Shown: in pieces, positions 1,711-26,664 of the stretch | How positions within the stretch are numbered: position 1 is the first letter of the stretch | How the letters are laid out: each line of letters opens with the position of its first letter | DNA from: Candidatus Nomurabacteria bacterium | Lineage (GTDB): Bacteria; Patescibacteriota; Minisyncoccia; Phycocordibacterales; CAIJYI01 | Length of the DNA: 38,343 nt | Direction of reading: 5' to 3' | Assembly (NCBI GenBank): GCA_943356445.1 | Contig: CALREZ010000009.1 | Span: 1 to 38,343 of the forward strand | Translations under genes and position numbers: made by a program | Notes under the pieces: model-generated | What the model saw: the letters and a program-made list of their open reading frames with translations, nothing else | What the model was told of the DNA's origin: nothing | The model's database searches: none

Positions 1711-1833
1711 ATTACCCTAAGGACGGGCGATTTTCACGATACTCCCTCATGGTCACTACGCATGATAAAAACCCGTGTTTTTCATACTTTCCTTTCTCTT
1801 TTAAGGACTACCCTTGCAAAGAGAAAGGAAAGT
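1711..1833. repeat. Dispersed repeat copy A (related to 3013-3130) plus 16-bp-arm hairpin
   Basis: Shares TTTTCACGAyrCTCCC...GGTCrCTACGCATGATrAAAACC...TTCATACTTTCC with 3030-3110; ACTTTCCTTTCTCTTT(1786-1801)/AAAGAGAAAGGAAAGT(1818-1833). Confidence 0.7.
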
Positions 1834-5587: not shown

Positions 5588-5668
5588 TAACAAAGTTAAA
5601 TAGCCCCAAGGGCAGTCCTTTCCCCGTCATTCCGCTTCGCTTCATTCCTCCTTTAAGGACTGCCCTTG
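5588..5668. repeat. Dispersed repeat copy C: TAACAAAGTTAAATAGCCCCAAGGGCAG leader plus long-loop hairpin
   Basis: CAAGGGCAGTCCTT (5607-5620) / AAGGACTGCCCTTG (5655-5668), perfect 14-bp arms. Confidence 0.8.
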
Positions 5669-5708
5669 CAATGCGACCTAATGAAAGATAAATACAAAAA
5701 ACTGACAG

Positions 5709-24999: not shown

Positions 25000-26664
25000 T
25001 TACATTTTCTCCAACACGGGAATTCCAAGCAAAGTGAGGCCGTTTTTGAGGACGATACCGACCGCTTTTACGAGAGCAAGGCGGTGTTCGGAGTGTTCGT
25101 TTCCAAGAATTTGGTTTTGTTCGTAATAAGCGTTGAATTCGCGGCAGAGATCAATCAAATAGGTGGCGATATAATTCGGAGCAAGTTCCCTGCGTGCCAT
25201 CAAAACCGTATTCGGCAATCCTTCAAAAAGCAGTCTTTCTAACACAGATATCGGTTCTACAAGGGTAGTCCTTGTATCAACAAGGACTACCCTTGTAGAG
25301 CTCGCTTTTCGCAGAATGGATTGAGTTCTTACGTAGGCATATTGCAGGTAAGCGCCGGAATCGCCTTCAAAAGAAAGCGCTTTTTGCGGATCAAAGATGA
25401 TATCTTTTCCGGGCGACTGTTTCAAAACGGAGTATTTTATTCCGGCGACGGCAATTTCTTCCGCCACCTTTCCTTTGTCTTCAATATCGCGATCCGCAAT
25501 TTTTTCCATCACCATTTCGGAAAGCGCTCCGATAAGCGCCTCGGCGGTAATCACGTCGCCGGTACGGGAAGACATCTTCCCCGTCGGAAGACGGAGCATG
25601 CCGTGCGAAACATGTTTGGTTTTCTTTTCCAGTTCCGGAAAAACAAGCGACATCGCGCAAAGCAAGACTTGGAAATAGTCATTCACTTCATTTCCGGTAA
25701 CCACAACAGAAGTATCATACGGATACGCATCATATTTTATTTTCGCCAACCCCAATTCTTTCGCTTCGTACGTCGGCAATCCTTCGGAATTCAGAAAGAC
25801 GCGCGTATGCAAGCCGTGTTCTTCGCCCGGAAATACCACCGCGCCATCACTTTTGAAAAACACGGTATCCAGGTTTTCTTCCACTATCTTTTTGCCGAGC
25901 ACCCCTGTTTCGCTCTCAAAAAAGTAATAGTCAAAATGCGTGCCAAGCCGTTTATAGATATGTTCAAAATACTCCAGCGATATCTTCCGCCCTTCATCGT
26001 AAATCTTGTTTATCTCTTCATCGCTTCGGTCGTAAATTTTCTTATTAACCTCCTGAATTTCTGTTTTATATTCTTCGTAATTTTGAGCTCCATAAGAATA
26101 GGCTTGGCCAAGATCGCTCGCGTCCCTTATTTCTTTTTGCTTTTTGCTTATTGCCCAAACCGTTTTCGCCACATGCATGCCGACATCGCCCTGATAGCAC
26201 GCGCGTTTTACCTCCGCTCCGTTCGCTTCAATAATCCGAGAAAGCGCTTCACCAAGGGTGTTCGTCATCAGGTGTCCGATATGAAATTCTTTGAAAGGAT
26301 TCGGATCGGTGTATTCAATAATCACCTTTTCTCCTTTTTCTTTTTCATTCTTTCCATATTCCGCGCCGCTCTCCAAAATTTCGCCGATATGTCCGCTCAC
26401 AATCTCGTCTTTCAAATAAAAATTGATGAATCCCGGCCCGGCAACTCCCATTTTTTCAACAACCTTTTTTATTTCCTCCGATTTCCATAGTTCAGAGATA
26501 AGAAATTCGGCAAATTCGCGGGGACCGCCCTCTCTCCCCTTCGCATTCATCATCGCCGCATTCGTCGCGTAATCCCCGAATTCAGAAGATTTTTCCACGA
26601 CAAAATCCCGAGCATTTTCGCCGAGAATTTTGTTTATTTCCTTTTGTATCGTTTCTTTGATCAT
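25000..26664 (-). CDS. argS: Arginyl-tRNA synthetase
   Basis: VIIEYTDPNPFKEFHIGHLMTNTLGEALSRIIEANG, SHGMLRLPTGKMSSRTGDVITAE, YLIDLCREFNAYYEQ. Confidence 0.96.
   Translation of the reverse strand: MIKETIQKEINKILGENARDFVVEKSSEFGDYATNAAMMNAKGREGGPREFAEFLISELWKSEEIKKVVEKMGVAGPGFINFYLKDEIVSGHIGEILESGAEYGKNEKEKGEKVIIEYTDPNPFKEFHIGHLMTNTLGEALSRIIEANGAEVKRACYQGDVGMHVAKTVWAISKKQKEIRDASDLGQAYSYGAQNYEEYKTEIQEVNKKIYDRSDEEINKIYDEGRKISLEYFEHIYKRLGTHFDYYFFESETGVLGKKIVEENLDTVFFKSDGAVVFPGEEHGLHTRVFLNSEGLPTYEAKELGLAKIKYDAYPYDTSVVVTGNEVNDYFQVLLCAMSLVFPELEKKTKHVSHGMLRLPTGKMSSRTGDVITAEALIGALSEMVMEKIADRDIEDKGKVAEEIAVAGIKYSVLKQSPGKDIIFDPQKALSFEGDSGAYLQYAYVRTQSILRKASSTRVVLVDTRTTLVEPISVLERLLFEGLPNTVLMARRELAPNYIATYLIDLCREFNAYYEQNQILGNEHSEHRLALVKAVGIVLKNGLTLLGIPVLEKM
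25256..25299. repeat. In-frame palindromic element within argS
   Basis: TCTACAAGGGTAGTCCTTGT-ATCA-ACAAGGACTACCCTTGTAGA, 20-bp perfect arms. Confidence 0.95.

Follow-up and report, generated by a model that had tools for sequence, protein, structure and literature searches.

Palindromes of the REP/REPIN type and their RAYT transposases (REPtrons; TnpAREP) are the closest described systems: short GTAG palindromes form two inverted half-units, a RAYT gene is bracketed by them, and each RAYT has its own palindrome type, features that the locus described here shares. Coevolution of RAYTs with the REPs around them has been described, as has rapid evolution of orthologous rayt genes (PMC2817692, PMC8266576). 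The spread of the palindromes themselves is poorly understood (PMC8266576). A survey of GTAG/CGTC REPs (BMC Genomics 2013; PMC3733652) describes in-frame REP monomers and dimers in uvr, DNA ligase, and tRNA synthetase genes of O. terrae, R. conorii, Thioalkalivibrio, and others, with the REPs possibly in flexible linkers or loops. Two further systems place palindromes within genes. Rickettsia palindromic elements (RPEs), of about 150 bp, occur in ORFs of unrelated genes and are read through in frame (PMC10969869), and nematomorph mitochondria carry perfect inverted repeats in essential genes, whose upkeep has been ascribed to conversion or template switching (PMC6649704).

Here we analyzed a window of 38,343 nucleotides (contig CALREZ010000009.1, the whole stretch of DNA under study) and followed up a sequence-only reading that had reported an in-frame palindromic insertion in argS of a CPR-like genome. 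The CPR assignment agrees with the name Candidatus Parcubacteria on the sister-species record. The palindrome itself is exactly as reported (TCTACAAGGGTAGTCCTTGT-ATCA-ACAAGGACTACCCTTGTAGA; Table 1), with perfect arms of 20 bp compared to a longest perfect arm of 11 bp in 20 shuffles of the whole window. It leaves the reading frame unbroken and encodes residues 456 to 470 of ArgRS on the minus strand. Its assignment to an ArgRS linker also holds: the palindrome lies early in the DALR anticodon-binding region, beyond the end of the catalytic domain model at residue 425, and both solved ArgRS relatives in the PDB and Pfam domains place it in the linker before the anticodon-binding domain. In composition it consists of two inverted half-units with 4 to 5 nt between them, the layout of a REPIN, and GTAG stands next to the hairpin (GTAG-TCCTTGTATCAACAAGGA-CTAC).

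Table 1. Coordinates of the argS palindrome and associated features in the window
Feature	Position	Strand	Remarks
argS, arginyl-tRNA synthetase, 554 aa	25000..26664	-	ORF; Pfam tRNA-synt_1d 93-425 and DALR_1 440-554; PDB ArgRS matches covering almost all of the protein
RAYT-type palindrome, 20-bp arms, 4-nt loop, encoding STRVVLVDTRTTLVE in the ArgRS linker	25256..25299	.	17-bp half-units ACAAGGGTAGTCCTTGT identical at C25:2890-2934, the 3' flank of the RAYT gene
Left arm of argS palindrome, includes GGGTAG TCCTTGT	25256..25275	.	
Right arm of argS palindrome, reverse complement of left arm	25280..25299	.	
Intergenic single half-unit CAAGGGTAGTCCTT; occupies the loop of a 16-bp hairpin (1786-1833) that is otherwise unrelated	1803..1816	-	
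Distinct, though related, repeat family: CAAGGGCAGTCCTT and AAGGACTGCCCTTG around a 34-nt spacer	5607..5668	.	Dispersed here and in the sister species

A genome-wide search for the full palindrome recovered one further full copy (C25:2890-2934) and one diverged copy (C25:2160-2205; TTTACAAGGTACGCCCTTGT-ATCA-ACAAGGGCGTACCTTGTAAA), which together bracket a Y1_Tnp gene at G000:C25:2234-2899 (G000 being this genome). The full copy lies directly 3' of this gene, whose stop codon falls within the palindrome (GGGTAG), and is laid out like the argS copy, GTAG included; the diverged 5' flank has GTAC. The encoded protein carries the HUH signature HFH (identified by eye) and scores above the Pfam cut-off for Y1_Tnp; against the NCBIfam model for REP transposases (NF047646, REP_Tyr_transpos) it reaches an E value of 6e-10 and 39 bits, below the cut-off of 80. 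The bracketed arrangement recurs in the sister species (G001; ArgRS 93% identical) and in a third congener (G002; 75% identical), and the RAYT, its palindromes, and downstream genes for a GH57-like glycosidase and adenylate kinase are syntenic in all three species, with map also downstream in G001 and G002 (gene names assigned by eye from translations). Because its copies bracket a RAYT transposase gene, we assign the element to the REP/REPIN type, and the argS palindrome is, judging from these matches, a satellite copy of the RAYT's bracketing palindromes. The likeness to Rickettsia elements drawn earlier is sound in that the palindrome sits inside an ORF and is read in frame; the RPE label is an analogy only, and, unlike RPEs, the elements here come with a RAYT whose bracketing copies place them with REP/REPIN. 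Perfect repeats kept perfect in essential genes also recall the nematomorph mitochondria, but the mitochondrial repeats lack a transposase and have not been presented as members of a dispersed family (PMC6649704).

Relatives of the palindrome had been reported and are indeed present elsewhere in the genome. The core motif has 15 matches, compared to a mean of 3.9 in shuffles, none of 100 of which reached 15. The core AAGGACTACCCTTG also recurs identically at the intergenic site in Table 1, as had been noted. A second proposed relative fared less well. The pair CAAGGGCAGTCCTT...AAGGACTGCCCTTG does exist (5607-5620 and 5655-5668), but it belongs to a different, longer family. This 62- to 75-bp dispersed family (5596-5680 in the window) has a conserved center, CCCCGTCATTCCGCTTCGCT, between arms that read CAAGGGCAGTCCTT or CAAGGTCTCTCCTT, occupies about 8 places in this genome and about 20 in the sister species, and shows covariation of its arms between subtypes; no RAYT was linked to it. 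With two full copies and one diverged copy, the argS-type family falls short of the many copies of a REP family, and because the copies are so few we describe the palindrome as REP/REPIN-type and not as a typical high-copy REP family. Other departures from REPtrons are the fusion of the half-units into a near-perfect hairpin of 42 to 45 bp, the score of the RAYT below the NCBIfam cut-off, and an off-locus copy that is coding and tracks the RAYT type. A search of 197 related genomes for the pattern GGGYAGTCC...GGACTRCCC gave matches confined to the home genus, and the sequence type appears to be genus-specific within this sample of the order. The same core was found in GTDB contigs of other CPR lineages, although some matches, e.g., in Flavonifractor or Alistipes, may be due to chance.

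Comparison with the sister species bears on how the coding copy relates to the transposase. At the same argS codons, G001 carries a different palindrome (ATACACAGGGTAGTCCTGTGT|ACACAGGACTACCCTGTGTAT, where G000 has the ACAAGG type), and its 38-nt core is identical to both flanks of the G001 RAYT. The argS palindrome is absent from G002, which has an equally long linker. Conservation of the same residues in related ArgRS had been raised as a sign that the element is no insertion; the sister species does have a palindrome there, but its sequence and peptide (EIHRVVLCTQDYPVYE) differ. Within G000 and within G001, the palindrome 3' of the RAYT gene and that in argS match in type, and from this correspondence the argS palindrome apparently tracks the transposase type. 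The copy within argS seems to keep pace with the transposase and does not look like a dead scar.

The RAYTs themselves show a matching discontinuity. Between G000 and G001, identity per 25-residue block is 25 to 72% over residues 1 to about 135 and 79 to 91% after residue 150. In the N-terminal half, 48 sites are common to G001 and G002 only, compared to 4 common to G000 and G001 only; in the C-terminal part the corresponding counts are 7 and 15 (Fisher p of about 2e-7 for N- versus C-terminal). The same comparison gave 7 versus 49 sites for the GH57 protein and 11 versus 108 for ArgRS, both in line with the species order. The bracketing palindromes of the G001 and G002 RAYTs (ACACAGGGTAGTCCTGTGT|ACACAGGACTACCCTGTGT) share 40 identical nucleotides between species, while the neighboring genes are only about 75% identical. 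These patterns point to a change of the G000 and G001 RAYTs mainly in the catalytic, DNA-recognizing N-terminal half, by recombination or fast divergence, and the mosaic could reflect fast divergence instead of recombination. In a genus sample of three genomes, one ancestral argS event followed by concerted change is indistinguishable from two separate events.

The ArgRS linker carries RAYT-type palindromes in other genera as well. In four genomes the argS type matches a RAYT of the same genome; besides G000 and G001, these are G014 and G030, which represent two other genera and carry palindromes of their own RAYTs in the linker. The G014 linker palindrome (TTACTTGGAAG-TCAGG-CTTCCAAGTAA) belongs to a RAYT's palindrome family with about 45 copies in that genome, as many as expected of a dispersed REP family, and that of G030 (AAAAGTTGGTTGTC-C-GACAACCAACTTTT) corresponds to AAAAGTTGGGTGTC-G-GACACCCAACTTTT at a G030 RAYT. 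Among 50 argS genes from the order, 6 linkers (2,997 nt in total) contained an inverted repeat with at least 9-bp arms, and 11 such repeats lay in the remaining 78,726 nt, for a Poisson P of about 5e-6, or 8e-4 without the home genus; the latter is the fair figure because the linker site was picked on account of G000. The correspondence with RAYTs did not extend to every case: no RAYT was found in G031, which has a weak linker palindrome, or in G034, which has an N-terminal argS palindrome, so that neither has a RAYT match, and a likewise weak G051 linker palindrome with 10-bp arms did not match the RAYT palindromes of that genome. In three other genomes, palindromes of 11 to 14 bp occur at another argS site, close to where the N-terminal and catalytic domains meet (around L039:195 and L042:191, and at L175:196, of the CDS), and these may be a coding coincidence (AEIL...ENFG).

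RPEs add their length to the host protein. The ArgRS linker, in contrast, has 21 residues with the palindrome, 21 in the 75%-identical congener without it, and a median of 19 elsewhere. The four RAYT-type linkers measure 21, 21, 19, and 22 residues, no longer than the 44 linkers without a strong inverted repeat (range 14 to 35), and an insertion in the sense of about 45 nt gained is not supported. Removing the palindrome would leave 6 to 12 linker residues, below the minimum of 14 among the 44 others. Because the lengths are ordinary and the remainder is shorter than any of these, the palindrome stands where linker sequence would otherwise be, and on this comparison it appears to have replaced that sequence while adding almost no length. 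Other proteins vary in this respect. The palindrome-encoded DLAVSPPS of Ung in this genome lies in a conserved loop with a length difference of one residue from human UNG, and the G014 aspS palindrome leaves no gap relative to Thermus AspRS. Other CPR genomes show net gains of about 9 residues in LigA and 11 in cysteine desulfurase, less than the 15 to 16 encoded, and the uvrA copy is part of a longer insertion that comprises about 30 residues. A one-step exchange or an insertion followed by trimming would both fit these lengths, which are the least settled part of the account.

Coding copies are not restricted to the argS-type family. In this genome, a second RAYT family (ACTTGGCGGTGAAACCGCCAAGT and ACTTGGAGGCGAAGCCTCCAAGT) is present in about 16 copies, a number in keeping with a many-copy REP family, and its palindrome occurs in frame in uvrA, uvrC, and ung (G000:C5:27329, C17:12631, and C22:10699; loci L251, L256, and L259). 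All three are DNA-repair genes of one genome. Its RAYT gene (G000:C6:31963-32634; L022:7964-8635) contains two in-frame copies of its own palindrome encoding LGGEASK, besides the flanking copies, and RAYT genes with their own palindrome inside the ORF were also found in G014, G030, and G051. The GGGTAGTCC core is in frame in genes for cysteine desulfurase, PheT, LigA, and ComF-like and PAP2-like proteins in other CPR genomes (the latter two identified by eye). Perfect outer arms specific to the individual copy extend at least 4 bp past the core in 12 of 39 family copies, where about 0.15 would be expected. In G014 (L232, L246), some palindromes enclose another member of their own family, e.g., TTGGAAGCTC[TACTTGGAAGCCGAGCTTCCAAGTA]GAGCTTCCAA, which looks like insertion into a hairpin loop. 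Outer arms and nesting together suggest insertion into hairpin loops or later conversion of the arms.

We consider it likely, with a probability of roughly 80%, that the palindrome in argS is a non-autonomous element of the REP/REPIN type, belongs to the Y1 HUH RAYT at G000:C25:2234-2899, and was inserted by this RAYT and later rewritten. Each arm carries GTAG, then the hairpin TCCTTGT-ATCA-ACAAGGA, then CTAC, the layout that RAYTs recognize as single-stranded DNA, and the candidate single-stranded target of the G000 RAYT is TCTACAAGGGTAGTCCTTGTATCAACAAGGACTACCCTTGTAGA. The transposase would have cut a single-stranded hairpin copy and joined it into the argS linker, which may have tolerated it because of its interdomain position and a stop-free frame (AGG GTA GTC CTT ... 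AGG ACT ACC CTT). When the DNA-recognizing half of the transposase changed, the argS copy may have been rewritten in place, by renewed transfer or by conversion from the RAYT-flanking palindromes, and the net effect would be an exchange of linker sequence at almost unchanged length. Against this account are the very low copy number and the state of the GTAG motif, which the left flank of the G000 RAYT has lost and the other RAYT palindromes in the genus lack; movement is inferred from sequence. More tentatively, and at less than even odds, we propose that the RAYT overwrites coding DNA with a palindrome of similar length, adding almost none, and holds remote copies to its own specificity. The ArgRS linker would then be a recurrent landing site across Parcubacteria-like CPR genera.

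Several other explanations were considered. The argS linker could be a preferred target at which each species gained its palindrome separately, with native residues then trimmed by selection on length. Linker palindromes in at least three genera, their density relative to the rest of argS, and the difference in sequence between sister species at one site are what this would predict; yet all four linkers are ordinary in length with no ordinary-length native linker left beside the palindrome, and linkers of 27 to 35 residues are tolerated in other genera, so that trimming is not required. We regard this history as unlikely, if plausible. Correction of a quasi-palindrome, in which a preexisting imperfect repeat is perfected by template switching at the replication fork and no transposase is involved, would be inherently length-neutral, has been discussed for the perfect coding palindromes of nematomorph mitochondria (PMC6649704), and would account for the perfect copy-specific outer arms, to which it may contribute. 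It fails to explain why the core equals the RAYT-bracketing palindromes of the same genome in four genomes, and as the origin of the argS palindrome it is improbable.

RAYT-derived origin also has to be set against a functional hairpin in the argS mRNA (attenuation or processing) that is under selection and unrelated to mobile DNA. The predicted fold is very stable (z = -6.6 relative to dinucleotide shuffles) and is kept perfect in two species, but no known Rfam family matched in the window, a strong inverted repeat is missing at this place from 44 of the 50 argS genes in the order, and RAYT flanks elsewhere in the genome match the sequence, which makes such a function very improbable. Least probable is an assembly or chimera artifact: this is a metagenome-assembled genome in 34 contigs, and contig C25 has a run of N beside the left palindrome of the RAYT, but the same arrangement recurs in separately assembled records (JAPLYL010000002/3 and CAIJYI010000008), in frame and with coherent species-specific sequence.

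Among these observations, in-frame REPs (PMC3733652), RAYT-REP coevolution (PMC2817692), and in-frame RPEs (PMC10969869) are already known, and the copies reported here resemble those of the GTAG/CGTC survey in lying in frame in uvr, ligase, and tRNA synthetase genes. Reuse of the argS site across genera, a coding copy that matches the transposase type, length neutrality, and a CPR host go beyond the passages of that survey considered here (PMC3733652). As far as can be seen, the new elements are the match of a coding palindrome to the RAYT type at one orthologous site in sister species, the recurrent argS linker, and the length neutrality; a literature search found no paper joining Patescibacteria and repetitive extragenic palindromes, which is an incomplete test of novelty. 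Sister species with different own-transposase palindromes at one orthologous coding site amount to a natural experiment on RAYT specificity. Mobile palindromes would also reshape essential proteins (ArgRS, UvrA, UvrC, Ung, AspRS, LigA, PheT, and cysteine desulfurase), several of them with little or no added length, which is relevant to the origin of loop sequence in proteins encoded by small genomes.

Two further arrangements were observed. In the window, an inverted repeat with 28-bp arms and zero spacer (CTTAAAAAAATCTAGTCAAAGTTTGCAT / ATGCGAACTTTGACTAGATTTGCGTAAG; 36102-36157) adjoins a gene that reads as ftsH. On contig C8 of G002 (L081:584-2854), four RAYT-type palindromes delimit a HicA-type toxin pair, a ParE/RelE-like toxin pair, and then a RAYT, in a cassette-like array with a conserved stretch (CTAATTTGGTTCGC...CCTCCC...GGTTTTTGCG) after each toxin pair.
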